This document shows, one piece after another, positions 1-30,211 of a DNA stretch of 34,430 nucleotides. Where the stretch lies: contig JASHNW010000010.1 in assembly GCA_030041435.1 (NCBI GenBank), positions 1 through 34,430 of the forward strand, written 5' to 3'. Origin of the DNA: Acidobacteriaceae bacterium (GTDB taxonomy: Bacteria; Acidobacteriota; Terriglobia; Terriglobales; Acidobacteriaceae). Each line of letters opens with the position of its first letter. Within the stretch, counting starts at the first letter, position 1. The notes beneath the pieces were generated by a model that saw only the letters and a list, made by a program, of their open reading frames with translations, was not told the DNA's origin and searched no databases. Made by a program: the position numbers and the translations under genes.

Positions 1-872
1 GCGAGCGGGAGGCGCGCATCACGGGGAGCTACGAGCGACTAGTTCCGCTGCTCATCGAGCGAAAAGTTTACGACGACGCTGAGCTCTGGGCGACAGAAGG
101 TATTCAAAAAACCGTCAAAGACGCTCCCGGAATTGCAGACCAACTTGCCAAAGCAATGGGCGAAATTGCCCGGCTGCGGGGGCAATGGAACGTGGTCGCC
201 GCGCACGCCGCATGGGAGTTTTTCGGGCGCCCCGGACGCGAAAAGTTCGCCGCGTTGGTCGCCGCCACCGAGCGTGCGGGGTGCCGGGAGGCGGTGGAAC
301 GTCTGGCCTTGGAATTCCTCGAAACCGGCAAGCTGCCCTTCTCGGTCGCGGTAAAGAAAGACGGAGCACGCAGCGTGACTCTTTATCCGGTCTGGCCGCT
401 GCCGCTCCCTGATTATTTGCTGCCTTTGTTGCAAACCGGAGACGCTCGTCCGCACTACGACGTGCTGATCGACATGGCGATTGCCGGGCACCGACCCGAT
501 GATGTTCTGAGGTGGTTCGACACCTGGCGCACGGCACAAAAAGGTCAGCGTGCCGGCTGGCATTTCGGGGCTGGCAGCTATGCCGACAAGGTGGCTGCAG
601 CCGTTGCCGAGTCGCATCCTGAGCGCACACTGGATGTCTATCGGGGCTGCGTCGACCAGAACCTGACGCGGGCAGAGGTCTCAGCATATGAAACGGTGGC
701 CGCTTACCTGAAGAAGATGCGCCCGATTCTGAAATCGCTGGACAGGGGTTGGGAGTGGAACGAGCTGGTGACGGAGATCCGCACGAACTACCGCAACCGC
801 CCTCGGTTCATGGAGATTCTGGACCGGCTGGAGGCCCTGCCAATCGTTCAGAAGTCCAGCGCACGGAAATGA
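1..872 (+). CDS. SWIM zinc finger-type protein, C-terminal part (5' truncated by window)
   Basis: The reading frame is open from base 3 to the stop at 870-872, so the gene starts upstream of the window and about 289 residues are visible. The visible part is an all-helical, repeat-rich C-terminal region. It starts with a segment of the type SYERLVPLLIERKVYDDAE and ends in a conserved-looking tail (YRNRPRFMEILDRLEAL). In known SWIM zinc-finger proteins of bacteria this kind of tail follows an N-terminal CxCxnCxH zinc finger; that finger would lie outside the window, so the family call rests on the tail alone. The zinc finger in the family is thought to bind nucleic acid or protein. An internal ATG at 156 could start a shorter 238-residue product, but the similarity continues upstream of it. 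The gene is transcribed towards, and convergent with, the SIR2 gene. Confidence 0.55.
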   Translation, partial: EREARITGSYERLVPLLIERKVYDDAELWATEGIQKTVKDAPGIADQLAKAMGEIARLRGQWNVVAAHAAWEFFGRPGREKFAALVAATERAGCREAVERLALEFLETGKLPFSVAVKKDGARSVTLYPVWPLPLPDYLLPLLQTGDARPHYDVLIDMAIAGHRPDDVLRWFDTWRTAQKGQRAGWHFGAGSYADKVAAAVAESHPERTLDVYRGCVDQNLTRAEVSAYETVAAYLKKMRPILKSLDRGWEWNELVTEIRTNYRNRPRFMEILDRLEALPIVQKSSARK

Positions 873-1022: not shown

Positions 1023-4000
1023 TCATTCGCCTGCGGGCTCGATGAGGCGCCTCAGCTCCGCCGCTTCGGTCGGATACCCCAGCACGCTTAGTCGCTCGCA
1101 GACCTGGATCAGGACTACCCGCTCCGCGGCACTCGCGGCCAAGCGCCGTACGACCGTATCGATTGGGTCGAGGTAAGGAGCCCCTGTCTCTGAGTTGAGG
1201 AGATAGCCGAGAAAGAGTGCGACCTCTTGCGGGTATTGCGCGTCGATGCGCAATTCATTGAGTTGCATATAAAGGAATGAGTTGGCGTAATTGTCCCTCG
1301 GAACTGGCTTCGGACCTTGCAACAACAGCTGTAAAGCTTCCGGCATTGCGCTTCCGAGATTAAGTAACCAGTGCGTCATCAGCGAAACTTCGAGGCCAGA
1401 CGGCAATGATGGCTGACCTTGATTCCGCAAAGCCCAATAGGTTTTCATCCATTTATCCCATACGAACTGCTTTTTGTCGCTTGGCACTTGTCGCAGCGCC
1501 ATTTCAACCGAGGACGCCCATGATGCTCGATCTTCGTCATCAACCGTCCTGATGAAGTCGGAAAGCCAGCCATCACTAAGTGGATTCTTGGCACCGAATA
1601 CGGCGATCCACGCGATGTGTTCACAAAATCGTGCGCGATGCTTACCCAGGTTTGAGCGCAAGTATGGAAACGTAGCCGTATAGCAGCTAAGAAAGCACTT
1701 CAAAAGCTCATCACTCCAACGTCCCCACCCCAAATATCCGTGCCAGGCTTGCTCCGCTGCTACCAAACGACCGTCCCAAGCAAATACGTCGGGCATTTCA
1801 GCAGACGTCCAATCTTGATCCATCGCAAATAGAACGTGAACTTGCGATGCGAGGAGCGTACGGCCCATACCGGAGGTCCAGGAATCATCGCGAATTACGT
1901 TTTGCCAATGTGAACGCCAATCAGCGGGGATGCCGGTCCAACGATCACCGGCGCCCTTCCATAGCCGGTTTAGTGCGCGAATTTCGAATTGCATTACGAT
2001 ACCGGCCGGATCATTTATCGCAGTGGATAGCCAGTCGTCAGATTGCGCCTTGGGCCATTCCCGGGGCGTCAAGCCATTCCAAACCAGTCGACCGACAGCT
2101 GCCGCAAGTTGCAACTCCTCATGAGGTATCACTCCACTTTCTCGTGAGACGCCCTGTTCGAGAAGGTAAGCAGCTTCGTAGGTCGCGACCTCGGCGATTC
2201 GTGGGTGACTTGCCAGGAGGTTTAGGACGACAGACCAGTTTTCTGCGCTGATTTCAGTTTGGGCGAGGCCCGCAATAATACCCCGCCAGAGGTAGGTACC
2301 AAAGATCCCTCGCTCCTGAAGGATGCTCGCAATCTCGATGCCCCATTGGGGCTCGGCTTCGGCGGCCCGTTGGAGGATGGCCACCACGTCATCCTCGCCG
2401 ATATCCCTAGTGTCGTCTGGTTCAAACGCGAGTAGCTGGTCCAATGCTTCAGCCGCGGACAGAGCCATCAGTGAGGTCGTGCTGAATGGTGGGGTCACCC
2501 AGGGAGGTTCGCCCCGAAGATACGCTCCTCCTTTGATCTCAGTCGGCGCTTCGGGCGGTCTGAATTCGGGGTGTGCCTGTGCGATGGCGGTGAGCGCGTC
2601 AGCCGCCCCTGAATGATTTGGGCAGCATGCGTGCAGCTTCGAAAGAAGGCTATAGATTCGGTGCTCTCTGTAAGGCGACTCCATTTCCTGTGGAGGGCCT
2701 TCCATGACGCGGTCCACGACGCGCAGTTGCACATCTGCGGCAGCCGCCGGGAAAGCTGCCTCCAAGACTTGCGGCACCTCAGTGTAAAAGCCTGGCTGAT
2801 AGATAAGATCGTTGGAAAGTAACCAGGAGAGCTTCTCATCCGCTGTCCATTCGCTTGTAAGCGCGACCCCAAGTAGTGCTATTCGCCTGAGGGTAATGCT
2901 CTGCCCCCTGGACCAGCTTTGAATCAGACCTATTCCGCAGCTCGGCTCGTTTTCGATGAGCCATTTGAAGCTGTCAAGCGCTACCCTTACCAAAACAGCG
3001 AGTCCGCTGTGTGAGAGTACGATGTTCGGTGTCTCCAGGTCTGGAAGATGAATTGAAATTGGATCCCACGAATCATGGTCCATTCCGTACGACCTGAAGA
3101 GATGTGTCGCTTCCTCTAAATGTGCAACGGCAATCGAAATGAGCTGATGGACATGTTTCGAAAAATCGTTTTCCAAGAAACGCTGCCACGCTGTCTCTAA
3201 GAACGTGTGATCTCCATGCGTTTCACATTCGATCGTCACTCGTGGTTCTTCCAAATGTGTGATTCCGTCAGGGCCAAGCTTCTCGGTGGGAATTCCGCTT
3301 GTAAGCTTGATTTCCGGCCGAACAAGATGGCTGAACAGGAGAATGGCGGACGCAGAATCTTCCGGAAGCCGGCATTCCGAAAGGATGTATTCAAGAAAAT
3401 CGAACCCACGAGAAGGTTGAGTTGCAATTAGGAGCGGCACCCACCTGTCCACGCAGCCAGCTGAATCGCCTGTCTTCATGCCCATCCACACCTGCCGCGC
3501 TGTCTCACTCCACAAGGTCCCGGGCAATGCAGAGCCGTTTCTTCTGACGAAATCCAAGGCGATACTGGCATGCGCGACACAAAACCTATGAGCAAACCAA
3601 TGGGCCAGCTCTTGATGACACTTGGTTGCCTGTATTTCACGGTTGAAAAGTTGTTTGAAAGTGTCCCGACCTGATACCCATTCGAGCCACTCCAGGCTTG
3701 AGGCATGCTCTTTGAAGAACCGCAGCAGGACGACGTCTGTCAGCGCTGTTTCGATCAGGTCAATGTCCTCGCCCGCTGGCTGAGGAGGTTGTGAGACTAT
3801 CCTCCTGATTCTCTCCCTCTTTTCGAGCGGCGTCGCTATTACCAATTCCGCCCATTTCGTGCAAGCTACACGAAGTTGTTCGTGCCCGTCGGCCGCGGAA
3901 TAAGAGATTGGATGAATTCCTCGGTTTTCCCAAGACGACCTCGACCCGGGTTCGTCGCTTGCCAGCGCGAAACGTCGCCTTCCGAATTCCGAGGGAGGAA

Positions 4001-4625
4001 GTCCGCGCGCGAGATAGTGCATCACAGGATCATTGTGGCTGTATCCGACAAACAGAACTGTGAAGCTCAGGAACAAATCCTGTATGAATCGGCGCGCCCA
4101 GCCTTCCGTCAGATACGCCCTGCCAAAGTCCTTGTCGGTCAGTACCATCCTGCGGGGGTCTTTCCGAACGCTTCCATGGACATGCACGATGCCGTTGAAG
4201 TTATTCCCGACTGGCAATGCCGGAGCAAAGAAAAGCTCTGGACAGCTTCCGGAGAACACCTCAACAGCTGCAGAAGCAAAATGGTCATCAAAATTGGTAG
4301 TCACGAGCCGTACCGATGGATGGCCCGAGAACACCCTTATCAGGTCCCGATGCAATGAATTCGGCTTCGACGAGGGATCAGAGAGGCAGAGCCGCGTCCT
4401 CTCGTAAATGTTGAGGTTCTCTGGCAATTTACCGAGGAATCGATCCACATCTTCATCCTGCTTTAGCGTGGCAGTGCCATTTGCAAGATTGTTGGCTAAA
4501 GTGGGGAAGTCCGGAAGATCCGAAGGCGAGGCCATCGAGACTCCAGCTCCAGCAAAGATCACAAGCTCGCCCTTAGCTTGGGCTTCCAAGAGCGCGCTCG
4601 GAAAGTCAACTCCCCCAAATCTCAT
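1023..4625 (-). CDS. SIR2-domain protein, probable anti-phage NADase effector (1200 aa)
   Basis: This is a large protein with an N-terminal SIR2-like NAD-binding domain. Visible motifs are GAGVS (26-30), TTNFD (109-113, with the Asn expected for NAD hydrolysis), HVHGS (148-152, with the catalytic-type His150) and GYSHNDP (194-200). Residues from about 280 to the end are helical, Trp-rich and without a domain I recognise firmly; a DUF4020-like C-terminus is possible. Long SIR2 proteins with helical C-terminal sensor regions (DSR1/DSR2 type) are known to deplete NAD when they detect phage proteins, causing abortive infection. The gene stands alone, with no HerA, Argonaute or TIR partner next to it. 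Base composition is visibly poorer in GC than the housekeeping genes further right, which fits horizontal transfer. There is no clear Shine-Dalgarno sequence before the ATG. The defence function is inferred from the family and the neighbourhood. Confidence 0.8.
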   Translation of the reverse strand: MRFGGVDFPSALLEAQAKGELVIFAGAGVSMASPSDLPDFPTLANNLANGTATLKQDEDVDRFLGKLPENLNIYERTRLCLSDPSSKPNSLHRDLIRVFSGHPSVRLVTTNFDDHFASAAVEVFSGSCPELFFAPALPVGNNFNGIVHVHGSVRKDPRRMVLTDKDFGRAYLTEGWARRFIQDLFLSFTVLFVGYSHNDPVMHYLARGLPPSEFGRRRFALASDEPGSRSSWENRGIHPISYSAADGHEQLRVACTKWAELVIATPLEKRERIRRIVSQPPQPAGEDIDLIETALTDVVLLRFFKEHASSLEWLEWVSGRDTFKQLFNREIQATKCHQELAHWFAHRFCVAHASIALDFVRRNGSALPGTLWSETARQVWMGMKTGDSAGCVDRWVPLLIATQPSRGFDFLEYILSECRLPEDSASAILLFSHLVRPEIKLTSGIPTEKLGPDGITHLEEPRVTIECETHGDHTFLETAWQRFLENDFSKHVHQLISIAVAHLEEATHLFRSYGMDHDSWDPISIHLPDLETPNIVLSHSGLAVLVRVALDSFKWLIENEPSCGIGLIQSWSRGQSITLRRIALLGVALTSEWTADEKLSWLLSNDLIYQPGFYTEVPQVLEAAFPAAAADVQLRVVDRVMEGPPQEMESPYREHRIYSLLSKLHACCPNHSGAADALTAIAQAHPEFRPPEAPTEIKGGAYLRGEPPWVTPPFSTTSLMALSAAEALDQLLAFEPDDTRDIGEDDVVAILQRAAEAEPQWGIEIASILQERGIFGTYLWRGIIAGLAQTEISAENWSVVLNLLASHPRIAEVATYEAAYLLEQGVSRESGVIPHEELQLAAAVGRLVWNGLTPREWPKAQSDDWLSTAINDPAGIVMQFEIRALNRLWKGAGDRWTGIPADWRSHWQNVIRDDSWTSGMGRTLLASQVHVLFAMDQDWTSAEMPDVFAWDGRLVAAEQAWHGYLGWGRWSDELLKCFLSCYTATFPYLRSNLGKHRARFCEHIAWIAVFGAKNPLSDGWLSDFIRTVDDEDRASWASSVEMALRQVPSDKKQFVWDKWMKTYWALRNQGQPSLPSGLEVSLMTHWLLNLGSAMPEALQLLLQGPKPVPRDNYANSFLYMQLNELRIDAQYPQEVALFLGYLLNSETGAPYLDPIDTVVRRLAASAAERVVLIQVCERLSVLGYPTEAAELRRLIEPAGE

Positions 4626-4750: not shown

Positions 4751-5227
4751 TCAACTGTGGTGTGATTCGTCGTGAAGAAGTTCGGGGTGGGTTTCCTTCA
4801 GCCATGCCTCTACCTGCTCCCGCAAGGCCACTAGATCTTTCATCACCTGCGCAAGTTCGGTGGGCGAGACGCCGCCGGCCAAATCGTAGCTCGTGGTGTT
4901 GCGCTTTTGCGAATGAGATTTGATCTTGCGCACCCATTTCTCGCGCGCGGTGGCATCCTGCGTTGTCAGCGTATATTCGAGGCTCTCGATCACGCGCTGG
5001 TGATGGCCCTGGCCGAGAGAGACGCGAAAACCGCTGGCGCGGAGAGCAATGTTGGCCAGCGTGAGGATGCCATTGTAGGCGGCCTGGAAGCGCAGATCGT
5101 CGGAGATGCCTTCCACCCTGGAGTCCGCCTGCGAGCGGTCCACGATGCTGAAGAGATCGGCGATTTCTTTCGGGCTGCTGGGTTCAGCCTTGTACCAGCC
5201 GAGTTGTGCCAGCTTTTCTAAACTCAT
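4751..5227 (-). CDS. HEPN-domain protein, partner of the adjacent nucleotidyltransferase
   Basis: This 158-residue all-helical protein is of the HEPN type. The signature near its C-terminal half is KRNTTSYD (108-115). Classical HepT toxins carry R-X4-H-X-Y, whereas here the position of the histidine is taken by Tyr114 (R109-N-T-T-S-Y114), so RNase activity is doubtful. Its start lies inside the 3' end of the upstream nucleotidyltransferase gene (44-nt overlap), so the two are translationally coupled. In MNT-HEPN modules the nucleotidyltransferase modifies the HEPN tyrosine and so neutralises it. Tyr114 is a candidate target here by analogy. It could instead be a structural partner in a non-toxic complex. 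The family assignment rests on motif and gene pairing. Confidence 0.75.
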   Translation of the reverse strand: MSLEKLAQLGWYKAEPSSPKEIADLFSIVDRSQADSRVEGISDDLRFQAAYNGILTLANIALRASGFRVSLGQGHHQRVIESLEYTLTTQDATAREKWVRKIKSHSQKRNTTSYDLAGGVSPTELAQVMKDLVALREQVEAWLKETHPELLHDESHHS

Positions 5228-5807
5228 CCTCGTCGCCGATCAGGAAGACTTTTTTGCTCTTCTTCAATGATTGCAGAAAGTGGTTGCCGGAGCGAAGCCG
5301 CGTCTTCAGGTCCTCAATGGTGTAAATGGTCGGATTCACGGGACGCCCCAACTGCTTTTCCACGGGACCCACGGCGTCCAGCACCTCGTCGAGCGAGGCG
5401 GCTCCGATCACCATGAGGTCGATGTCGCTGGTCGCCTTCTCCTCGCCGCGTGCCACCGAACCATATACAAAGGCAACATCGATCCGGGACGAGAGCGGCG
5501 CAAGCGCCCTCTTGATCATCTGAAATACCCCCGCCGTTTTTGCGAGCAGTGCCCGCAGCTCCGGATATTCCGGGTGCTCCTGGTTGGCCTGGTAAAACAC
5601 CTGATTGCCAACTGTGGAGCGCTTGATCAGTCCTGCATCGGCGAGCAAGTTAAGCTCCCGCTGCACGGTCCCCACGCTGGTCTCCACCTGGCGGGCGATT
5701 TGACGAACGAAGAGGGTTTCGTCGGGCGCACCATACAGGAGCGCCAGGACTCTTCCTCTGGTCTGGCCAAAGAGCAGATCGCCGACGGACGTGAGCGTCG
5801 TTCTCAT
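5184..5807 (-). CDS. Winged-helix/minimal nucleotidyltransferase fusion (MNT partner of HEPN)
   Basis: This 207-residue protein has two domains. Residues about 10-80 form an ArsR/MarR-like winged helix (the stretch with SVGTVQRELNLLADAGLIKR). Residues about 105-190 form a minimal nucleotidyltransferase with the GS-X10-D-X-D motif (G116-S117, D128, D130). The usual third acidic residue of the active site appears as VNPT rather than VDxT, as in several relatives of this fused family. I chose the ATG at 5807 because the similarity to the family begins there. Extension to a TTG at 5870 would translate the operator palindromes. No ribosome binding site precedes 5807, so the message may be leaderless or have a short leader. 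The winged helix makes this the likely autoregulator of the pair. The gene overlaps the HEPN gene by 44 nt. Confidence 0.8.
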   Translation of the reverse strand: MRTTLTSVGDLLFGQTRGRVLALLYGAPDETLFVRQIARQVETSVGTVQRELNLLADAGLIKRSTVGNQVFYQANQEHPEYPELRALLAKTAGVFQMIKRALAPLSSRIDVAFVYGSVARGEEKATSDIDLMVIGAASLDEVLDAVGPVEKQLGRPVNPTIYTIEDLKTRLRSGNHFLQSLKKSKKVFLIGDEDEFRKAGTTRLVQG

Positions 5808-5837
5808 TTCGAGAACAATTGTACTCAAAATGAGTAC
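5800..5837 (-). promoter_or_regulatory. Tandem palindromic operator over the nucleotidyltransferase start codon
   Basis: Two 17-nt palindromes lie side by side: GTTCTCATTTCGAGAAC at 5800-5816 and GTACTCAAAATGAGTAC at 5821-5837. They share the consensus GTWCTCAWWWYGAGWAC. Their centres are 21 bp apart, about two helical turns, so both would face the same side of the DNA. The first contains the start codon (5805-5807) of the winged-helix protein. This is what an autorepressor site would look like. Binding itself is inferred. Confidence 0.7.
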
Positions 5838-5905
5838 AGGCGGGCAAACGGTGCGCATCCATCTCGCCAACGCCGCAACTGGGCAGCGTGAGCCCTGATC
5901 GTGCC

Positions 5906-6502
5906 TCAGATCCCGATTTCCTGGTCGTAGGCGGCCAAATCGGCAAGGGCCGCGCGGCGTTCCGCCTGGCTTGCCGATTCCCGCGCCCTTGCCTTGGCCT
6001 GCATCACGGACTGGATTTCGTCAAAATGCCATGGGCGAAACTCGTGAGTATCAACCCCAACATCAAGGGAGAGTGCCAGCGGCTCATCCGGCAGGTTGCC
6101 GTGCGAATGTCCATAGAGGTGCCACGCGCCTTGAGCGTGATGCGGCCACACCCTCGTCGCATAATGACAAAGCACGATTCTCTGCTTTGCTTTGAGGATC
6201 TCGGACAGCAAATTCCAGGATGCAAAGAGATGCTGAAGCTTGCGCGCAGTCCTGTCGTGGTTGCCTTCGATAAAGTGGATGGTCCGGCAAGCCAGCCGCT
6301 TTCGATAGGCGGTCACACGTTCCGGTCCTCCCAGGCAGAAGTCCCCGAGGAAATAGAGAATATCGTTCGGTTTGGCGCAAGCGTTGACACGCTCGCAGAT
6401 CGCTTCGTCCATCTCCTGCGAGTTCGCAAACGGACGATTGCAGTACCGAATGATGTTGAAGTGGCCGAAATGAAAATCGGCGGTGAACCAGACACTGCTC
6501 AT
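5906..6502 (-). CDS. Calcineurin-like metallophosphoesterase
   Basis: This 198-residue single-domain metallophosphoesterase shows all five family motifs: DFHFGH (D9, H11), GDF (53-55), EGNHD (79-83), LCHY (111-114) and YGHSHG (130-135). These residues bind two metal ions and hydrolyse phosphomonoesters or phosphodiesters. The compact form with FTADFHFGHxNI at the very N-terminus is common on phages and mobile elements. A GTG at 6541 would add 13 residues, but the ATG at 6502 starts directly at the first strand of the fold. The substrate cannot be told from the sequence. It lies downstream, on the same strand, of a decayed DUF6088 copy and is followed by the nucleotidyltransferase-HEPN pair. 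A role in defence or nucleotide metabolism of the element is only a guess. Confidence 0.85.
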   Translation of the reverse strand: MSSVWFTADFHFGHFNIIRYCNRPFANSQEMDEAICERVNACAKPNDILYFLGDFCLGGPERVTAYRKRLACRTIHFIEGNHDRTARKLQHLFASWNLLSEILKAKQRIVLCHYATRVWPHHAQGAWHLYGHSHGNLPDEPLALSLDVGVDTHEFRPWHFDEIQSVMQAKARARESASQAERRAALADLAAYDQEIGI

Positions 6503-6556
6503 ACATTGATTCTCGTTGATCTCGGGGCTTGCCGTCGCCACCTCTCAAAAACATTC

Positions 6557-6690
6557 TCATCGCAACTCGTGACGCAGGCCGCGTACGATCACGCATCCAA
6601 TCGAGCGTCTGTACAAAGCGCATACCGCGTGGCTCGCCAGGTAAAGGCCGCTGGGCGCGGCGGCTGACAGATACCATGATTTCCCCAATA
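6557..6690 (-). pseudogene. Decayed fragment of a DUF6088/AbiEi-like gene
   Basis: Short pieces of the neighbouring intact DUF6088 gene can be read here on the same strand but in two frames. APSGLYLA matches APSRLYWA, then after a frameshift RGMRFVQTLDWMRD matches PAMRFVQALDWLRD, and after an internal deletion VRGL matches the end of the intact protein. There is no start codon and the central and N-terminal parts are missing. It is therefore the relic of a second antitoxin-like copy, probably left by recombination or deletion within the element. Confidence 0.7.
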
Positions 6691-6831: not shown

Positions 6832-7161
6832 GTGTCAAATCAGAAGGCACAATTGACCGCGGCATTAGATGAGCTGAGAGCGCAGGCTTTAGAAATGGCA
6901 TTGAACACCCCGCCGCAAGTTGCGGCGAAGCTCAGGCAGAACGCCGCGTTGCGTCCCTCAAAATACGATTTCAATTCAGAGATTGAATGGAAATACCGGC
7001 TTGATGTGAATGATGTTTCGGCCTATTCGGATGCGGCGACGCTGATTGATGATATGAGAGCCTTGAGGCAGTCCATAAACAACCTCGAGTTTGTGGAAGC
7101 CCAAGGCGTCGGTCCCCACAACACGGTCAAGGTAAGTGACGAAAGCGAATTCGACTACTAG
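6832..7161 (+). CDS. Hypothetical protein (109 aa)
   Basis: I do not recognise this protein. It is soluble, acidic and mostly helical by composition, with an N-terminal helix rich in Ala, Leu and Gln (residues 1-40) and a C-terminal tail ending in DESEFDY. No Cys pair, signal peptide or membrane segment is visible. The start is GTG at 6832, supported by a good Shine-Dalgarno sequence (GGAAGGAG) ending 7 nt before it. It is the only rightward gene between the metallophosphoesterase and the DUF6088 gene, and is convergent with the latter. Its position inside the putative element, facing an antitoxin-like gene without a toxin, makes it worth testing as a cargo or toxin gene, but nothing in the sequence says so. 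Confidence 0.6.
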   Translation: MSNQKAQLTAALDELRAQALEMALNTPPQVAAKLRQNAALRPSKYDFNSEIEWKYRLDVNDVSAYSDAATLIDDMRALRQSINNLEFVEAQGVGPHNTVKVSDESEFDY

Positions 7162-7290: not shown

Positions 7291-7923
7291 TCACGGGAGC
7301 AGGCCGCGTACGATCTCGCGCATCCACTCCGGAAGCGCGGAAAGATTGGTACGGAGGTCATCACGAATTGCCTTCCCATGCTGCGAGTCTCGAAGGATGG
7401 AGAGAAGGCGACGCCGCAACTGTCCGTCGTCCGAGGGGAGCATGTCCCGCAGCCAGTCGAGCGCCTGGACGAAGCGCATGGCGGGCCGGCCCGCCCAGTA
7501 AAGGCGGCTGGGCGCTGCATGGCGAAAGTTGATGACGAGTTTCCCGAGACTGACAGGGCGGAGGCGTGCATCGGTCAGTACGGTGATGCGCGCCGGGACA
7601 GCGTTGGTCAATCCGAGGTCATTGGCCGCCGTGATGCCGTCCACGAGGACTCGAACGCTATTCTTGCGGGCGAGCGTGTCGATTACGGCGCGGGGGTCGG
7701 GAGAGGTGGGTTTTCCGGTAAGGCGATTGGTGCTTGGAACATCGTAGAGACCACGAGCGATGCGGCGCAGTTTCCCGGAAGCGACCAAACGGTGCACGGC
7801 TTGGTCCACGGCAGTGCGGGGTCCGAGGTCGGCGAAGTCATCCGGGGTCCAGACGTGGATCGTCCGTCCAGCGGCAACACGACTGCGGATAGCGGCGGCG
7901 ATGCTGGGTGAAGGAACTGGCAT
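7291..7923 (-). CDS. DUF6088 family protein, AbiEi-like antitoxin without visible toxin
   Basis: This 210-residue protein has an N-terminal winged-helix-like segment (about 1-65: AAAIRSRVAAGRTIHVWTPDDF and LVASGKLRRIARGLYDVP) followed by the DUF6088/AbiEi-type C-terminal domain (about 75-205, with DGITAANDLGLTNAVP and RPAMRFVQALDWLRDML). AbiEi proteins are transcriptional autorepressors and antitoxins that counter a downstream nucleotidyltransferase toxin, AbiEii. No AbiEii follows here: beyond the stop there are about 130 nt of non-coding DNA and then a convergent unknown gene. A decayed second copy lies at 6557-6690. The gene may be an orphan regulator or the survivor of a module that lost its toxin. 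The start ATG at 7921-7923 sits 8 nt from a palindrome that could be its operator. Confidence 0.75.
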   Translation of the reverse strand: MPVPSPSIAAAIRSRVAAGRTIHVWTPDDFADLGPRTAVDQAVHRLVASGKLRRIARGLYDVPSTNRLTGKPTSPDPRAVIDTLARKNSVRVLVDGITAANDLGLTNAVPARITVLTDARLRPVSLGKLVINFRHAAPSRLYWAGRPAMRFVQALDWLRDMLPSDDGQLRRRLLSILRDSQHGKAIRDDLRTNLSALPEWMREIVRGLLP

Positions 7924-8155: not shown

Positions 8156-8194
8156 TTTTGTACAATTCGCGGATTTTTGTACAGATTTTGTAAT
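8156..8194. repeat. TTTTGTACA direct repeats near the attachment site
   Basis: TTTTGTACA occurs at 8156-8164 and 8175-8183, with a degenerate third copy TTTTGTAAT at 8186-8194. A palindrome TGTACGTACA lies at 8120-8129. The surrounding AT-rich DNA (about 7960-8276, over 300 nt) holds no gene I can support. Short direct repeats beside an att site are typical of integrase arm-binding sites, which is a possible but unproven reading. Confidence 0.35.
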
Positions 8195-8276
8195 TCCACC
8201 CAGCATTGTGGACTTTGTGGCAATTTGTAAGTTTTAGAAATGATTGATACTTAATGACTTATCCTGTGGAAAAAGC

Positions 8277-8300
8277 GTTCGACTCCCGCCGCCTCCACCA
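8277..8300 (+). other. tmRNA/tRNA 3'-end fragment, probable attachment site (att)
   Basis: The 24 nt consist of a T-loop (TTCGACT), the 3' T-stem strand (CCCGC), an acceptor strand (CGCCTCC) and ACCA. This is exactly the layout of the 3' end of a tmRNA, or of a tRNA with an encoded CCA. The 5' T-stem strand is absent, since AAGCG stands where GCGGG would be needed, so it is not part of a complete RNA gene. Such displaced 3' ends mark one end of elements that integrate into ssrA or tRNA genes. The accessory genes lie to its left and chromosomal-looking genes to its right, which fits. Confidence 0.65.
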
Positions 8301-8563
8301 GAACATTTTTCGCAAACACGGTTAGCGATTGCGTTTGATTTGCTGTGAAAAGCGAGACCAACCTTCGATTCGGCCCTTCGATTCCTGGAGCACGGATCCT
8401 TGCCGTGCCGAGGCGCCCAACGATCCCGCATATCGTGCCGAGGGCCGTATGCAGGCGCTCGACACAACGCGGCGATGAAACGTATCGGCGATTCCGAGAG
8501 CTTGCCCCGGTGATGGCCCAGATGCAGCCGGATCTTGCGCTACAGCTTGCGGCATGACCGAGA
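8301..8563. other. Intergenic stretch without a supported gene
   Basis: I see no convincing gene between the att-like site and the next gene. A 70-codon frame on the + strand (8345-8557, GTG start) ends in a protein-like tail (FRELAPVMAQMQPDLALQLAA would be its last residues), so it might be the worn-down C-terminus of an older gene. It has no ribosome binding site and I do not call it. Confidence 0.4.
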
Positions 8564-8809
8564 TCAGGGCTGGTACCCGTCCTTCATCCATTGCGAAAAA
8601 CGATCCAGCATATCCTGAGTCCAGAAAGGGCCCCCGGGTGGCATGCTTTGCGTGATGAGCGAGTTGAGCACATCCTGAGCGTTCCTGTAATTGTTGTACG
8701 GGTCCGACATCCAGGAGTAGCTGTCAAGCGGCATACCGTAAGCCTGCATGTGTTCTACATCGATTTCCCGGAATAGGGGCCTGATGTCGTTTGCGAAAGA
8801 TACGGCCAT
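8564..8809 (-). CDS. Small conserved-type protein of unknown function (81 aa)
   Basis: The protein is short, aromatic-rich and soluble: MAVSFANDIRPLFREIDVEH at the start, a middle with MSDPYNNYRNAQDV, and a C-terminus with MPPGGPFWTQDMLDRFSQWM. The SFANDIRPLFR opening followed by a later MPPGGPxW resembles the small proteins or cytochrome-like segments found next to tyrosinase-type oxidases in other bacteria, but it has no CxxCH haem motif, so I give no function. The start at 8809 is chosen over one 8 codons upstream because GAGAGGAG, a strong ribosome binding site, ends about 5 nt before it. The first gene right of the att-like site, it is probably ordinary chromosome. Confidence 0.7.
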   Translation of the reverse strand: MAVSFANDIRPLFREIDVEHMQAYGMPLDSYSWMSDPYNNYRNAQDVLNSLITQSMPPGGPFWTQDMLDRFSQWMKDGYQP

Positions 8810-8823
8810 GATCACTCCTCTCA

Positions 8824-8848
8824 GGCGCCACAACCAGCCGGTGGCGCC
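8824..8848 (-). other. Hairpin in the leader of the 81-aa protein gene
   Basis: GGCGCCAC (8824-8831) and GTGGCGCC (8841-8848) are perfect inverted copies around a 9-nt loop. They lie just upstream of the ribosome binding site of the gene starting at 8809. No T-run follows, so it is not a standard terminator. Confidence 0.45.
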
Positions 8849-9021
8849 GACATGTCGATCCGGAATTGCGTTCCGTGGCTGACAGGTCGGGCCGGGACAG
8901 CTGCCTGCTCACGGAACTGGCAGCCGTCGGAGTCTGGGACCGCATGACTCCAATTGCCCTGCGACTCCACCATTCTTCTTCATTCCGCTGCAACCGTCCA
9001 TCCCTGTGAAACCTCCTCCAC

Positions 9022-10176
9022 TTATTTCGGGCTCAGGCCAGTTTGGGGCTGGTTCGCTCCGACATTCCCGGGGCCGCCGACGATCTCGAGGGTGGGGATG
9101 CGGTCGTCCATGGAAGGCAGCGGCGGAAAGGGCATGTGCGGTTCGGTCTGGTACCAGTAGGCGACGGAGTAGAAGTTGTCGGAGCGGTCGTTGGCATGTC
9201 CGTGCTCGATGGTCGCCTTCATGTACTTCGTAAACGTGATGGGCGAGTCAAGGTGAAAGCGGTAGACGCTCCAGCGTTCGCCGGCGAGTTCTCTGCCCAC
9301 GACGGGAGCGCCGTAGAGCGGATAGGAAAAGGGCGCGCCGCCGAAATCCCACGCTCCGAGGAAGTAATCCTCTGAGCCGGTTCCGCCCGGGACCAGCGGC
9401 TTGTCCGGGTCGTCGATGAAGAACATGGGGTCGCCCTCGCCCCACCAGCCATCCTGATTCTGCAGGACCGACATGGTGACGCCCACGAACTGGCCGCGGC
9501 CCTTCGCCTCGAACCAGACATAGTTGTTCTTGCCGTCGAGATTGCGCTTGAAATTGACGAGTGGATCGCCGTTCTCGTACCACTGATTCGTCCAGCCGTG
9601 ATTCGGCTGCGCCTGGCGGTACTCGGCGTGAAAATACAGCGTGCCGGCGGGCAGCGGGTGCGGATAACTGCGGTATTCGATGTTGTAGTAGAGGTTGGAG
9701 AGGGTCATCTTCCCCTCATTGGTTATGGTGATGCGCGCGTGATGCTGGAAGGGCATGGGGAAAAAGCAGTTGAGCGCGTTGCGATTGCCGACGGAGAGCA
9801 TCTTAGAGGACCAGCTGACGTACTCGCCGAACCCAAGGCCGAAGAAATCGCCGATGGGCGTCTCGACGCTGGGGTCCTGCTCCCCATCCCAGTACATGCG
9901 CAGCACGATGCGCTTGAGGTGGTAGGGCTCGGGATCGCCAATGGTGAACCAGATATGCGAGATCACGCCTGGGCCGTCGGCGTCGAAGATGGTGAGGGTT
10001 TGACCGGGAGTGACGGTGCGGTAATCGGCGTTGCCGCCGGTGGTTTCGGCGCTCGACACCAGGCGCCAGGTGTAGTCCTGCTCGCGCGTCGGGTCGGGCC
10101 ACTGGGTGACACTTTGTGCCACGAGGCTGGTGGCTGCGCCCGCCAGCAACAGGATGATCCACGGGGATCGCCGCAT
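9022..10176 (-). CDS. DUF2961 / glycoside hydrolase family 172 protein, secreted
   Basis: This 384-residue protein has an N-terminal signal peptide (MRRSPWIILLLAGAATSLVAQ) and a DUF2961 beta-sandwich domain covering the rest. Landmarks are GPGVISHIWFT, the segment MYWDGEQDPSVETPIGDFFG, NCFFPMPF, GGTGSEDYF (with the acidic SED) and FYSVAYWYQ. Family members classed as GH172 act on fructofuranosides or arabinofuranosides, with the acidic residues in the Gly-Ser-Glu-Asp region taking part in catalysis. The exact sugar is not predictable here. The start at 10176 is supported by GGAGGAGAGAG just upstream and by the signal peptide. It is expected to act in the periplasm or outside the cell on plant or microbial polysaccharide. 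It is downstream of trpD on the same strand but separated by 155 nt. Confidence 0.88.
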   Translation of the reverse strand: MRRSPWIILLLAGAATSLVAQSVTQWPDPTREQDYTWRLVSSAETTGGNADYRTVTPGQTLTIFDADGPGVISHIWFTIGDPEPYHLKRIVLRMYWDGEQDPSVETPIGDFFGLGFGEYVSWSSKMLSVGNRNALNCFFPMPFQHHARITITNEGKMTLSNLYYNIEYRSYPHPLPAGTLYFHAEYRQAQPNHGWTNQWYENGDPLVNFKRNLDGKNNYVWFEAKGRGQFVGVTMSVLQNQDGWWGEGDPMFFIDDPDKPLVPGGTGSEDYFLGAWDFGGAPFSYPLYGAPVVGRELAGERWSVYRFHLDSPITFTKYMKATIEHGHANDRSDNFYSVAYWYQTEPHMPFPPLPSMDDRIPTLEIVGGPGNVGANQPQTGLSPK

Positions 10177-10331
10177 CGTCTCTCTCCTCCCATTCTGCGC
10201 GGCAACCGGTGGAATTGGTGCGCGGAGCCGCCCCTGTATTTGTAACGCGGGAAGAGCGCTTCGTAAAAGGGACCTTTGCACGCGGCCACTTTTGCCGTGC
10301 AGCCTCTGGCATCCCGGCGCGACAAAGGAGC

Positions 10332-11396
10332 TCAGCGCGGGAGTGAGGCGCCGAAGTCGCGCAGCGCTTCGAGGGTTTTGCGGCCTTCGCCGGAGTCGAT
10401 GGCCGCGGCAGTGCGATCGACCCCATCTTTCAGGCCGGCGACGAGGCCGGCGGCTTCCAGAGCAGCTGCGGCGTTGATGAGGACCACGTCACGTCTGGGT
10501 CCGCGATCGTCGCCGCTGAGGATGTCTTCCAGGATCGTGGCATTGTCGAGCGGTGTGCCGCCGCTCTGGAGCTGACTGATGTCGGCGGTCAGCAAGCCGG
10601 CATTTTCAGGCCGAATGAGGGTACGCACCAGGGGGTCGGGCGACGAGACCAGGATGGCGTCGGTCTCCGAGAGGTCGATTTCGTCGATGCCGCTGCGGGA
10701 GTGGACCACGCGGCCGCGGCGGATGCCGAGCTGGTCCATGGCGCCGGCAACGGTTTCCAGCTTTTCCGGAGCGAAGACGCCCACGATTTGTGCGGGAGCG
10801 CAGGCAGGGTTGGTGAGCGGTCCGGCCAGATTGAAGATGGTGCGGAAGCCGAGGGCGCGGCGGATGGGCTGCACGCGCTTCATGGCCGGATGGAGCGCGG
10901 GCGCGTAGAGAAAGGTGAATCCGGTAGCGCGCAGGCAGACTGCGGATTGTTCGGGGGTAAGCGCAACAGGAACGCCCATGGCCTCGAGGACGTCGGCGGA
11001 GCCGCATCTGGATGTGACGCTGCGATTGCCGTGTTTGGCGACTTTGGCTCCGGCCGCCGCCGCCGCGAGAGCAGCGCCGGTGGAGATATTGAACGTGCCG
11101 CGGCCGTCGCCTCCAGTGCCGCAGGTATCGACGAGAGCGGCGCGCTCCTCGGCAGTGAGTGGGATGGGGAGGGCGAGGGAGCGCATGGCCTGGGCGAAGC
11201 CGGCGAGCTCGTCGGCAGTTTCGCCGCGAGTGGCCATCGCGGTCAGCAGCGCAGCGATCAGCAAGTCGCCGCCCTCTTCCGGTTCGCTGGTGAGGATGGC
11301 AAACAGAGCCGCGCGGGCTTCGTCGCGAGTGAGCGTGCGCCGCTCATCTGCGACAGCTTTCAGGAGGTCTTTCAGCTCCGGCATGGATGGTTCCAT
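10332..11396 (-). CDS. trpD: Anthranilate phosphoribosyltransferase
   Basis: This enzyme transfers phosphoribose from PRPP to anthranilate, the second committed step of tryptophan synthesis. The 354-residue length fits the family. Visible landmarks are the PRPP-binding GTGGDG loop followed by NISTG, the KHGNRSVTSRCGSADVLE segment, and the RALGFRTIFNLAGPLTNP stretch of the C-terminal domain. The start is either ATG 11396 or ATG 11384; neither has a strong Shine-Dalgarno sequence. No other trp gene is adjacent, so the pathway is split in this genome. A very stable hairpin (11421-11462) lies immediately upstream, between aqpZ and trpD, and could insulate or regulate it. Confidence 0.95.
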   Translation of the reverse strand: MEPSMPELKDLLKAVADERRTLTRDEARAALFAILTSEPEEGGDLLIAALLTAMATRGETADELAGFAQAMRSLALPIPLTAEERAALVDTCGTGGDGRGTFNISTGAALAAAAAGAKVAKHGNRSVTSRCGSADVLEAMGVPVALTPEQSAVCLRATGFTFLYAPALHPAMKRVQPIRRALGFRTIFNLAGPLTNPACAPAQIVGVFAPEKLETVAGAMDQLGIRRGRVVHSRSGIDEIDLSETDAILVSSPDPLVRTLIRPENAGLLTADISQLQSGGTPLDNATILEDILSGDDRGPRRDVVLINAAAALEAAGLVAGLKDGVDRTAAAIDSGEGRKTLEALRDFGASLPR

Positions 11397-11419
11397 GCTA
11401 CCCGACAGAGACGCAGCGC

Positions 11420-11463
11420 GAGGAGGAGGCGTCCACGCGAGACCGCGTGGACGCTTCCTCCTG
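11420..11463 (-). other. Very stable hairpin between aqpZ and trpD
   Basis: AGGAGGAGGCGTCCACGC (11421-11438) and GCGTGGACGCTTCCTCCT (11445-11462) pair along 18 bp with only one G-T position; one more G-C pair leaves a 4-nt loop. No T-run follows in the leftward transcript, so it is not a textbook intrinsic terminator. It sits 24 nt before the trpD start and could block read-through from aqpZ or protect an mRNA end. Confidence 0.6.
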
Positions 11464-11476
11464 AACGCGTGAGGAG

Positions 11477-12241
11477 TCAGTCGCCCGCAGCAGTTCCGGG
11501 CAGCGCCTCGTATTCCGGTTTGGCGGGAACTGCGCGCACGCTTAGGTCCGGCTTTTCCGCAAACACAAGTCGATAGAGAAGCCCCGCAAGGATGCCTCCC
11601 AAAATGGGAGCCACCCAGAAGAGCCAGAGCTGCGCCAGGGCCCATCCGTGCACAAACAGAGCCTGGCTGGTGCTGCGTGCGGGGTTGACCGAAGTGTTCG
11701 TGACCGGGATGCCGACCAGATGGATCAGGGTGAGACCCAGTCCGATGGCGATAGGCGCGAGGCCCTTCGGCGCCCGCACATCGGTGGATCCCAGAATGAT
11801 GAGCAGAAAGAAGAAGGTCAACACGACTTCGGCTACGAAGCAGGACAGGAGAGAGTAGCCGCCCGGCGAATGAGCGCCGTAACCGTTGGCAGCGAAGCCG
11901 CCGAGCACAAAGCCGGGCTTGCCGCTGGCGATGATGTACAGAACCCACGCCCCGGCCGTCGCGCCCGCCACCTGGGCGATGATGTACGGCAGCAGATGAG
12001 CGAGAGGAAAGCGCTTGCCGACGGCCAGTCCGACCGAGACAGCCGGGTTGATGTGGCATCCGGAAATGTGGCCGATGGCGAACGCCATGGTGAGGAGGGT
12101 CAGGCCGAAGGCCAGTGCGACACCGAGAAAGCCGATGCCAAGGTTGGGATAAGCGGCGGCGAGCACGGCCGCGCCGCATCCGCCGAAGACCAGCCAGCCG
12201 GTGCCGAAGAATTCGGCGACGAGAGATTTGCTGAGATTCAT
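11477..12241 (-). CDS. aqpZ: Aquaporin Z family water channel
   Basis: This 254-residue inner-membrane protein has six expected membrane helices and two NPA boxes (GCHINPAVS in the first half, NTSVNPARS in the second). The residues that shape the selectivity filter in AqpZ are recognisable: Phe in the LAFGLT helix, His in [12 protein letters not shown], Thr, and Arg after the second NPA. This argues for a water-selective channel and not a glycerol facilitator. AGGAGG ends 6 nt before the ATG. The C-terminal 25 residues are polar and cytoplasmic. It is transcribed divergently from sucC across a 305-nt intergenic region. Confidence 0.95.
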
Positions 12242-12372
12242 GGTTTCCTCCTGGTAGAACTGAGAGGATTCGCGACCGACGGCGAACCAGGCGACCGGAA
12301 CAACCCGGATCCGGTCAAGGAGGAATCAGGGAGCGGAGAACCAGGGAGAGCCCTGACTCGGGGGAGAGCGCC

Positions 12373-12465
12373 AGTGTAGCGCAAGCGTGCTGCAACGGTT
12401 GTGTACGCGAAAAATGCGCGGCAGGCGCGGCAGGTTTGCTCCCGGTTCGATGCGTTCGCTACACT
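12373..12465. promoter_or_regulatory. Divergent aqpZ/sucC control region with inverted AGTGTAGCG boxes
   Basis: The 305 nt between aqpZ and sucC contain no gene. A likely sigma-70-type promoter for sucC is TTGCTC (12436-12441), an 18-nt spacer and TACACT (12460-12465). The same CGCTACACT sequence appears inverted as AGTGTAGCG at 12373-12381, pointing at aqpZ, though no good -35 box accompanies it there. The two boxes could be paired -10 elements or sites for one regulator. Promoter calls are by eye. Confidence 0.4.
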
Positions 12466-12546
12466 GAATATTCGGCCTTGAGACGATTTCACGCGCAGGG
12501 GCGCGGCTGTCCGATCCGGTTACAAGTTTTCTGCTGAAAATCTCTT

Positions 12547-13725
12547 ATGAAAATTCACGAATATCAGGCGAAAGACATCCTGGCGAAGTATGGCGTCGCA
12601 ATTCCGCACGGTGAAGTGGCCAACACGCTGGATGAGGCGCTGGAAGTGGCCAAGCGGCTGTTCAGCGACGGCGCGAAAGGCGTGGTGGTGAAGGCGCAGA
12701 TTCACGCCGGCGGACGCGGTAAGGGCGGCGGTGTGAAGGTGGCGAAGACGCTGGACGAAGCCGAGCAGTATGCCAAGCAGATCCTGGGCATGCAGCTGGT
12801 GACACACCAGACCGGGCCGCAGGGACAGAAGGTGCAGCGGCTGCTGATCGAGGAGACGGCGGCGATCGACCGCGAGCTGTATCTGGGCATCGTGCTGGAT
12901 CGCGCTGCGGCAAAGCTGGTGTTCATGGCGTCGCAGGCCGGCGGCATGGAGATTGAGGAAGTCGCCGCGAAGGATCCGAAGGCCATCCACAAGGCGTACA
13001 TCGATCCGGCGGTGGGATTCCAGGCGTACCAGGCACGCGAGCTGGCGTTTGCGCTGGGGCTGAAGCCGGCGCAGATTGGCGATGCGGTGAAGTTCATGAT
13101 GGGGCTGTACCGGGCCTACATTGAGACGGATGCGTCGCTGCTGGAGATCAACCCGTTCATCACCACGAAGGACGACAAGCTGTTTGCCCTGGACTGCAAG
13201 ATCAACTTCGACGACAACGCCATGTTCCGCCACAAGGATCTGAAGGAGCTGCGCGATGTGGCGGAGGAGGATCCCCTCGAAGTCGAGGCGTCGAAGTACG
13301 CGCTGAACTACATCAAGCTCGACGGCAACATCGCGTGCATGGTGAACGGCGCCGGGCTGGCCATGGCGACCATGGACATCATCCAGTATGCGGGCGGCAT
13401 GCCGGCGAACTTTCTGGATGTGGGCGGCGGAGCCAACCAGCAGCAGATCGAGCACGCGTTTGAGATCCTGCTCTCGGACAAGAACGTGCAGGCGGTGTTC
13501 ATCAACATCTTCGGCGGCATTCTGCGCGTGGATACGCTGGCCCAGGGCGTTGTGCAGGCAGCGAAGAATCTGAACGTGAAGGTGCCGGTGGTGCTGCGGC
13601 TGGAAGGCACGAATGTGGAAGAGGGGCGAAAGATTCTGAAGGAGTCGGGATTGAAGTTCATTGTCGGCGACACGATGCAGGACGCGGCGCAAAAGGTGGT
13701 CGCTGCGGCGAAAGGAGCTGCGTAG
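12547..13725 (+). CDS. sucC: Succinate-CoA ligase (ADP-forming) subunit beta
   Basis: The beta subunit of succinyl-CoA synthetase makes ATP or GTP from succinyl-CoA in the TCA cycle. At 392 residues it has the normal size. It opens with the ATP-grasp start [17 protein letters not shown], followed by the nucleotide-binding segment [17 protein letters not shown], the metal-binding EINPF, and the ligase domain with FLDVGGGAN and [11 protein letters not shown]. It is followed after 2 nt by sucD, so the two are one operon. No clear ribosome binding site precedes the ATG. Confidence 0.98.
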
Positions 13726-13727
13726 AG

Positions 13728-14603
13728 ATGGCTGTTCTGGTGAACAAGGAGACGCGCCTCATCGTGCAGGGCATTACCGGACGCGAAGGGACTTTTCACG
13801 CCAAAGGCTGTGCCGAATACGGCACAAAGGTCGTCGGCGGAGTAACGCCGGGCAAGGGCGGAACCATCCACGAAGGCTGGCCGGTCTTCGACACCGTGCA
13901 CAAGGCCGTCGAGGAGACGGGCGCGAATGTCACAGTGATCTTCGTGCCGCCGCCGTTTGCCGCCGACGCGATTCTGGAAGCCAACGACGCCGGCGTGCCG
14001 CTCATTATCTGCATCACGGAAGGCATTCCTATCAACGACATGGTGAAAGTGTGGACCGTGCTGAAGCAGTCGAAGTCGCGGCTGATTGGGCCAAACTGCC
14101 CAGGCGTAATTTCGCCGGGGAAAGCGAAGGTCGGCATCATGCCGGGGCGCATTCACAAGGAAGGCTCCATCGGGATTGTCTCGCGCTCAGGCACGCTGAC
14201 CTATGAGGCTGTGTATCAGCTTACTCAGCGCGGGATTGGACAGTCGACGGCCATCGGCATCGGCGGCGATCCGATTATCGGGACGACCCACGTGGACGCG
14301 CTGAAGCTGCTGAACGAGGATTCGGAGACGGAAGCCATCATCCTCATTGGCGAGATTGGGGGCACGGCGGAGGAAACCGCAGCGGCGTACGTGAAGGCGC
14401 ACGTGAAGAAGCCGGTGGTGGGATTCATCGCCGGGCAGACGGCGCCTCCAGGGCGCCGCATGGGGCACGCAGGGGCGATTATCTCCGGCGGCCAGGGAAC
14501 CGCGGCGGAGAAGATGAAGGCGCTGACCGCCGCAGGGATTCAGGTTGTGGAGACGCCGGCCGCTATTGGGGAGACGGTGGCGAGAGTGATTGGCAAGGCG
14601 TAA
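13728..14603 (+). CDS. sucD: Succinate-CoA ligase (ADP-forming) subunit alpha
   Basis: The alpha subunit binds CoA and carries the phosphorylated active-site histidine. Visible are the CoA-binding Rossmann start ([20 protein letters not shown]), the [11 protein letters not shown] segment, and [10 protein letters not shown], whose His is the phosphohistidine. At 291 residues it is of normal length. Its ribosome binding site (AAAGGAG) lies in the end of sucC. The operon seems to end here, as heptamer repeats and ndk follow. Confidence 0.98.
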
Positions 14604-18298: not shown

Positions 18299-18692
18299 TT
18301 CCCTCGGGGCTTCCACGTTTCGCGCTGCATTGCGCCGACCGGCCACCAGCTCCCGGCTACCAGCTATCCGCTAGTAGTACAGATACTTCCTCCACTTCAG
18401 ATCCGAGTGCCCGATCATCCGCATAATGTGCCGGCTGGTGTGCAGCGTGAAGGGCCGCGGCTCCCGCTGCAGCTTCATGTGCTCCAGCTCGTGCAGCAGA
18501 TGATTGCCCTTGCGCCGGTTGCAGCTGTGGCAGGCTGCCACCAGGTTCTCCCACGTCGAGGCGCCGCCGCGCGACCGCGGCACCACGTGGTCCAGCGTCA
18601 GCTCCGCGGAAGGCAGCACCACCCCGCAGTACTGGCACGTATTCCGGTCCCGCAGCAAGATGTTCTTCCGGCTCAGCGCCCGCGTCTGGTGC
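18191..18692. repeat. Inverted duplication, copy 1 (HNH end + YdeI end)
   Basis: This ~500-bp block is repeated in inverted orientation at about 22690-23217. It covers the ydeI-like fragment, the intergenic DNA with heptamers, and the 3' half of the HNH gene. In this copy HNH is intact and ydeI is truncated. Boundaries are estimated by eye from the last alignable bases. Confidence 0.85.
18347..18374. repeat. Heptamer repeat array at the HNH stop codon
   Basis: Four 7-nt units can be read: CAGCTCC, CGGCTAC, CAGCTAT, CCGCTAG. They run into the stop codon of the HNH gene (18371-18373). The corresponding position in the second copy of the block carries about eight units. Confidence 0.65.
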
Positions 18693-18988
18693 GGAATCCT
18701 CCGGTACTCCAGCAGCCGGATTACGGACGGCAGCGAGATCCGCACGCGCGCCGAATGCAGCTCCGTCCCCTGCTCCTCTTCGGTGCGCGCCACGCCCTTC
18801 AGCACCAGCACCAGCGCCCGCCGCGCCCCGCAAATATTAATCGGCTCGTAGGAGGCGTTCAGCACCAGCACCGGAGTCTGCATCGCGTGCGTGGTGGTCA
18901 CCACGCGCACCCCGTCGTCTCCGGGGGCCGTCTGCGGCCGCCCCAGTGTCTGCCTGCGCGCGTGCACTCCAGCTTTCCCCAGCGACAT
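18371..18988 (-). CDS. HNH endonuclease
   Basis: This 205-residue protein has a C-terminal HNH domain: zinc ligands C118/C121 (CQYC) and C153/C156 (CHSCN), the catalytic-type D133-H134 ([13 protein letters not shown]), and Asn148 in TWENLV. Standalone proteins with the opening [14 protein letters not shown] and this HNH are widespread in bacteria; their role is unsettled. ATG 18988 has an excellent ribosome binding site (GGGGGAGGAACA). The alternative ATG at 18883, where the conserved sequence begins, has none, so I use the longer form. A second, damaged copy of the HNH part lies inverted at 22690-23075. Confidence 0.9.
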
Positions 18989-30139: not shown

Positions 30140-30211
30140 CGCGCCGCCAGGATTTTGGTAGGGTGAAGGCTCCCGGGTTTCCGGTGACTCCTGTGATCGG
30201 AGGGCGTGCGA

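Follow-up and report, generated by a model that had tools for sequence, protein, structure and literature searches.

Genes for tmRNA are classic targets of integration (PMC4383910, available in part). In Pseudomonas, the tmRNA-downstream islands I23, I44 and I55 carry a tyrosine integrase, AlpA and predicted phage-defence genes, with no recognized transfer genes in the available part of the published account (PMC12595487), and in Dehalococcoides tandem ssrA islands are described, again in an account available in part, as driven by the serine recombinase DsiB (PMC3146451). Among the best-ranked results of a partial literature search, no title was devoted to such islands in Acidobacteria. Integration at the tmRNA gene is a well-known route, and the element proposed here for an Acidobacteriaceae genome is a new example of it: positions 8277-8302 of the window (the whole stretch of DNA analysed, 34,430 bases, which makes up the entire contig C25) very probably represent the right border (attR) of an integrative element in ssrA that is probably mobilizable.

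The sequence GTTCGACTCCCGCCGCCTCCACCA sits exactly at 8277-8300 on the forward strand of the window, which is its single match there with up to three mismatches, and none of 100 dinucleotide shuffles gives any match. Within the window ARAGORN detected no tRNA or tmRNA gene and no Rfam family reached its gathering score. As the window is the whole of C25, the search for an upstream RNA gene had to use the rest of the genome (5,769,352 bases, or 5.77 Mb, in 134 contigs, rated 99.7% complete). Throughout this genome the 24-mer matches twice at up to two mismatches, at window 8277-8300 and at C26:3729-3752 on the reverse strand, the latter being the last 24 nt of an intact tmRNA gene (ssrA, C26:3729-4080; Rfam RF00023, E 1.6e-80; ARAGORN tag ANTNQLAYAA), the sole tmRNA match over the family cut-off in the genome. 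The identical block extends to 26 nt, from the T-loop to the CCA plus the GA that follows the 24-mer. The 5' T-stem strand is GCGGG in ssrA and AAGCG in the window, where the last stem base alone is kept, and this alignment bears out the anatomy proposed in the preliminary description, namely T-loop, 3' T-stem strand, acceptor strand and CCA with the 5' T-stem partner missing. That description also preferred a tmRNA to a tRNA gene as parent, rightly: apart from the window copy, the genome matches the 24-mer at ssrA alone, with identity at 24 of 24 positions, which rules out origin from a tRNA gene. It is hardly conceivable that the fragment is a chance match or a piece of a tRNA gene, given this identity, the empty shuffles, and the absence of the reversed pattern from all 120 genomes compared, of which 60 hold the exact pattern (GTTCRACTCC...).

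An intact RNA gene with the same 3' end, followed by an integrase gene, had been anticipated upstream of the window, and both were found, but on another contig, C26. The integrase gene starts 95 nt past ssrA (C26, locus L011, 2458-3633, reverse strand) and encodes a tyrosine integrase of 391 aa (Phage_integrase PF00589, E 2.6e-17). Of the features by which Islander recognizes genomic islands, an intact tRNA or tmRNA gene, a displaced identical 3' fragment elsewhere and an integrase within the interval are present. Beyond the integrase, C26 encodes a 332-aa protein with weak TIR-like matches to ThsB (E 0.005) and ThcB4 (E 0.007), a 191-aa protein without match, and a 108-aa protein with no Pfam family and weak matches only, which we read as a helix-turn-helix (HTH) protein; it is kept near related integrases and is possibly an excision factor. 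The start side of C26 holds the C-terminal end of a TraA/TraI-like relaxase-helicase, and the frame of a TrwC relaxase on C67 (PF08751, E 3.7e-83) continues into C26 with a single stop, at its end, so that the relaxase expected of an integrative and mobilizable element is provided by C67 and C26 together. No type IV secretion genes were named by family scans of the parts scanned, C100 having been read at its two ends only.

Islander also asks that gene and fragment share a replicon, in the correct orientation and at a suitable distance; here they lie on separate contigs, and their orientation agrees if the chain C26-C67-C100 leads to C25. The end of C67 equals the start of C26 and the start of C67 pairs with the start of C100, each over 197 nt at 100%; 14 pairs among the 141 contig ends compared (of 268) overlap by exactly 197 nt, and the remaining ends might offer rival partners for these two overlaps. 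The overlaps between the ends of C33, C53 and C54 proved to be runs of N and were dropped. A diverged paralogue of the window's first gene ends C100: the last 300 nt of this contig match window 336-634 with 84% identity along 299 nt, and their orientation is the one predicted for a C100 that continues into C25. The left end of C25 has no exact overlap of at least 26 nt among the 141 of 268 contig ends compared, and a gap remains between C100 and C25. We infer that C26 and C25 carry the two ends of one element, the pieces of which (3728 + 3647 + 3080 + 8302) sum to about 18.8 kb plus the gap; the element is therefore most likely at least about 18.8 kb long.

Other mobile sequences are also visible in this genome. 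On the other side of ssrA (C26, L011, 4587-6180), the 3' end of a tRNA-Leu(CAG) gene at a distance of about 0.5 kb points towards a different Phage_integrase gene (457 aa), and a second island is probable there. Besides C67 and C26, TraA-like relaxase-helicase matches occur on four more contigs (C27, C64, C93 and C111), and several mobilizable elements may thus live in this genome. Within the window, the ORF at 18371-18988, which we take to be HNH-like, has a partial near-copy in the ORF list at 22731-23075, on the opposite strand and about 4 kb apart.

Table 1. Features of the window around the displaced ssrA 3' end, in window coordinates.
Feature	Position	Strand	Basis or remark
Protein cut by contig start, C-terminal 289 aa; weak PDC-S62 match	3..872	+	PADLOC
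1200-aa SIR2-like protein (SIR2_2); N-terminal part resembles Dsr1 models, DUF4020 in C-terminal part	1023..4625	-	Profiles
PDC-M05B-like partner (labelled HEPN in the preliminary description); no Pfam match at E 0.001	4751..5227	-	Profiles
HTH and MNT-type nucleotidyltransferase, PDC-M05A-like	5184..5870	-	Profiles
Calcineurin-like metallophosphoesterase	5906..6541	-	Profile
Small ORF without family match	6832..7161	+	Profile scans
DUF6088 / AbiEi-like protein	7291..7923	-	Profiles
TTTTGTACA, putative arm-type integrase site 1	8156..8164	+	Motif search
TTTTGTACA, putative arm-type integrase site 2	8175..8183	+	Motif search
TTTTGTAA, putative degenerate copy 3, 11 bp beyond site 2	8186..8193	+	Read by eye
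CTGTGGAAAA, sub-terminal motif, sole window copy	8264..8273	+	Motif search
Very probable attR core: displaced ssrA 3' end (T-loop, 3' T-stem, acceptor strand, ACCA) plus GA	8277..8302	+	26 nt identical to C26 ssrA end
89-aa ORF, first ORF taken as outside the element	8564..8833	-	16 of 120 searched genomes (with our own) have a match
DUF2961 protein, right flank	9022..10281	-	Not beside trpD in the relatives read
Conserved chromosomal block trpD - MIP channel - sucC - sucD	10332..14603		MIP from Pfam; comparison with relatives

The DNA flanking the two copies of the core provides a further connection between the contigs. The two window copies of TTTTGTACA (Table 1) compare with 0.04 expected, and C26 has a single copy, at 3654-3662, 66 nt past ssrA; CTGTGGAAAA is likewise single on C26 (3688-3697, reverse strand, 31 nt past the ssrA end), and all copies of both motifs are on the core-carrying strand. 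The window arm and the DNA past ssrA share motifs that are absent from the rest of both contigs, as expected of one attP split in two. The motifs were first spotted by eye and then tested, and the argument rests on the match between the arms: the C26 arm (93 nt) and the window arm (130 nt) have eight octamers in common, a number reached by none of 8540 other segments of both contigs (both strands) and by one of 5000 shuffles. At words of 9 the match is reached by none of the 8540 segments and by 11 of 5000 shuffles; it is weaker at words of 10, where two words are common to the arms and 12 of the 8540 segments and 30 of the 5000 shuffles do as well. Within single arms, the repeats of our left arm have weak statistics, as 42 of 1000 shuffles do equally well at spacings 9-12 and 119 of 1000 at 9-23, and the window arm gives no signal at spacings 9-12 (404 of 1000 shuffles) and 12 of 1000 at 9-23.

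Similar repeats are found beside related integrases. In all eight integrase-side arms compared (L011, L184, L321, L177, L051, L320, L171 and L170, of which L011, our own, and L184, from JOPF197, are near-identical), the best direct repeat at spacings 9-12 is spaced at exactly 11 bp and begins 41-58 nt away from the core. Significance within single arms is modest: between 0 and 51 of 1000 shuffles do as well at spacings 9-12, and between 4 and 208 at 9-23. The repeated words differ between elements (TTTGTAC, CTGTACC, TGCGCCAAA, GTACGATA, CTGTACAG, TTTGTACGT and others). We read these direct repeats as putative arm-type sites of the integrase. Operators of its promoter would be an alternative, but the presence of similar repeats at the opposite end of the element speaks against it.

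The genes to the left of the fragment (Table 1) are likely to serve anti-phage defence, as suggested by profile matches to Dsr1, PDC-M05A/B and AbiEi. The SIR2 gene and the MNT nucleotidyltransferase gene named in the preliminary description are both supported by profile matches, but its two DUF6088 genes reduce to one intact gene and a 17-residue remnant-like match at 6588-6638 (E 0.001). The PDC-S62 profile matched the window's own fragment alone in this genome. In base composition, the DNA left of the fragment has 56.3% G+C, compared with 60.7% for 8303-10300 and 64.4% beyond, and C26 from its start to ssrA has 54.7%.

The right flank is conserved in part. The sucC-sucD block is conserved in the relatives, and trpD adjoins sucC in nine of ten loci read, the tenth ending at a contig end; the names trpD, sucC and sucD are our own assignments, that of MIP coming from Pfam. 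In the relatives read, the DUF2961 gene and the gene at 8564 sit elsewhere, not by trpD or ssrA, and the right flank may therefore have changed for other reasons. The placing of core genes on the right, as first described, holds from trpD (about 10.3 kb) onward. ARAGORN detected no tRNA or tmRNA gene in the trpD-sucCD loci fetched from 10 of 11 same-genus relatives or in the DUF2961 loci of six relatives. The fragment was not seen in relatives lacking the accessory genes, the ten trpD/sucCD contigs being free of exact pattern matches.

The ssrA loci of nine same-genus relatives revealed no empty site; eight of these loci extend downstream of ssrA, by 170 nt in G010, by 1.4 kb in G003 and by up to about 15 kb in the others. 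The genome set holds one genome per species, and since all relatives are thus other species, the lack of an empty site does not disprove an island. The comparison first suggested, in which the RNA gene would join the gene at 8564 directly, gave no positive case: ssrA never runs into that gene in the relatives read. A tRNA-Leu(CAG) gene lies left of ssrA on the other strand in seven of the nine same-genus loci (ARAGORN), the exceptions being G003 and G008, the contig of which starts at ssrA, and the right flanks of these loci vary. The sole match there to a right-flank protein of the window, an ABC ATPase 7 kb past ssrA in G005 (41% identical), was judged generic and rejected. In another genus (G054), a protein 51% identical to the product of window 30206-31897 is encoded about 5.7 kb past ssrA, a single distant match.

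The integrase, with homologues at the ssrA genes of further Acidobacteria, has matches at E <=0.001 in 85 of 120 genomes searched, own included, and 7 of 19 matches of at least 150 bits adjoin ssrA or an exact 24-nt copy (own, G057, G018, G105, G112, G032 and G048, the last at a 24-nt copy near the contig start). In G020 an integrase cut by the contig end (89 bits) is also beside ssrA. Among 17 loci of named records, six are at a tmRNA gene or 24-nt copy, nine within 200 nt of a tRNA gene and two at neither, one of the two (L193) being a 17-residue match. Ten of 120 genomes have two or more exact copies of the 24-mer (own, G008, G010, G017, G018, G020, G039, G040, G044 and G058), with three copies each in G040 and G017; G057, the closest complete-genome integrase homologue at ssrA, has no second exact copy. 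Between the copies of G039 (24.6 kb) and G044 (16.3 kb), no tyrosine integrase was detected in a scan of 12 genomes (PF00589, E 0.001). A scan of IMG/VR for the 24-mer gave at least 120 stretches. In JOPF197 (L184), the ssrA tag differs (ANDNLALAA) and the first 46 integrase residues are 98% identical to those of the C26 integrase, which fits recent movement between hosts, although only about 0.2 kb past the core is comparable. Two further loci are recorded here as observations: in G017 (C23, 818000-833854, L165), three ssrA-end copies share one orientation, the last lying 5 nt before the contig end, and no tmRNA match over the family cut-off occurs in that genome; in bog_218 (L177 9765-9902, L323), a 5'-truncated second ssrA comprising about 135 nt of the 3' part precedes the integrase, the intact ssrA being on another contig.

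A closed element of the same kind is present in Acidicapsa dinghuensis 4GSKX (NZ_JAGSYH010000004.1), which has three copies of the 24-mer on one contig. The copy at 119542 ends ssrA and has an integrase beside it, and the copies at 319607 and 335552 bound a 15,969-nt (15.97-kb) element between exact 24-nt repeats. This element resembles ours in its integrase (78% identical), its HTH-like protein (82% over 79 aa) and the 24-nt core at both ends. Its arms, read by eye, hold CTGTACCA-type pairs on both sides, with CTGTGGAAAA on the right and TTGTGGAAAA on the left, a layout similar to that of our element with TTTTGTACA. The cargo is different, consisting of an RT-like protein (28.9 bits, below the Pfam cut-off of 29.6), type I restriction-modification, a HipA-like kinase and RusA, and tblastn with the C67 relaxase found no match in the A. 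dinghuensis element. Its attR is followed on the right by a decayed second left end that closely resembles its own, and the element therefore belongs to a tandem array; its distance of about 200 kb from the intact ssrA indicates that a position directly at ssrA is not required for elements of this family.

In the mechanism proposed here, the tyrosine integrase would recombine the 26-bp core of a circular attP (T-loop to CCA plus GA) with the core at the ssrA 3' end. The element would bring a matching ssrA 3' end, by which ssrA would be rebuilt intact at the left border (attL, on C26), and the original 3' end of the host gene would be pushed to the right border, now at window 8277-8302, with the repeats on both sides of the core as proposed arm sites. 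The predicted order is ssrA, integrase, weakly TIR-like protein, 191-aa protein, HTH-like protein, TrwC/MobF relaxase (C26 and C67), C100 and the gap, followed by the window genes (SIR2/Dsr1-like, MNT pair, phosphoesterase and AbiEi-like), attR and chromosome. The two cores, the intact ssrA, the integrase, the common arm motifs, the relaxase and the two contig overlaps are seen directly in the sequence; we infer arm-site function, excision, mobilization and a role in defence for this element. The reading of the fragment as a trace of integration at an ssrA or tRNA gene, as originally suggested, is supported by the intact ssrA with its integrase, the common arm motifs, the contig overlaps and the step in G+C.

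Two other histories deserve consideration. The integrase on C26 might belong to an inner element and the window fragment mark the outer border of a different, perhaps dead, element in tandem with it at ssrA. Such arrays do occur, as indicated by the three 24-mers and the decayed left end of A. dinghuensis, by the three copies in G040 and G017, and by the tandem ssrA islands of Dehalococcoides in the available part of that account (PMC3146451). A tandem arrangement needs a third core between the elements, however, whereas this nearly complete genome has only the two described above; in addition, the same rare motifs are present in both arms, and the gene that closes the C26 chain is paralogous to the first gene of the window and points the same way. 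A tandem pair is therefore considered unlikely.

Less probable still, and in our judgement very improbable, is that the fragment is a footprint of an older insertion or rearrangement, next to which accessory genes gathered otherwise, with no functional relation to the C26 integrase. Displaced copies without a detected tyrosine integrase between them, such as those of G039 and G044, would fit such a history, as would the gene at 8564 and the DUF2961 gene, which are not syntenic in relatives; against it, the integrase frame is full-length, the 26-nt core is exact and the arms match on both sides. A single element with its right border at the fragment remains the preferred explanation.

More tentatively, and with rather low confidence, it might be supposed that in Acidobacteriota one clade of tyrosine integrases drives elements having a common core at ssrA or tRNA 3' ends and element-specific arms. 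If this were true, several elements could accumulate at one ssrA without excising each other, because the arms would change in sequence but keep a fixed register, and the arm-site reading, if right, would offer a directly testable rule on the sharing of one attachment site by related elements. With regard to detection, a 24-nt scar in raw sequence can be enough to predict a mobile element, even one that has its other end on a different contig.

Compared with described systems, the present element is a further case of integration at a tmRNA gene, here in Acidobacteriota, in which a relaxase accompanies the likely defence cargo. As far as the available parts of the respective accounts extend, it agrees with I23, I44 and I55 in its position directly downstream of the tmRNA gene, the direct repeats of the tmRNA 3' end, the nearby tyrosine integrase, the predicted defence cargo and a small regulator (AlpA there, a putative HTH-like one here), and differs in the length of the repeat (14 bp there, 26 bp here) and in the TrwC/MobF relaxase of its contig chain, recognized transfer genes being absent there (PMC12595487). 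The Dehalococcoides islands likewise lie downstream of ssrA with direct repeats of its 3' end (20 bp), integrate at the T-loop and show tandem accretion and variable cargo, but they use the serine recombinase DsiB, in place of which a tyrosine integrase (PF00589) is found here (PMC3146451). The Islander genomic islands in tDNAs show the same regenerated target gene, displaced 3' fragment and integrase; as the identical block starts at the T-loop, the present case is placed in their T-stem region class, and, within the available part of that account, it differs from them not in principle but in being split over contigs (PMC4383910).
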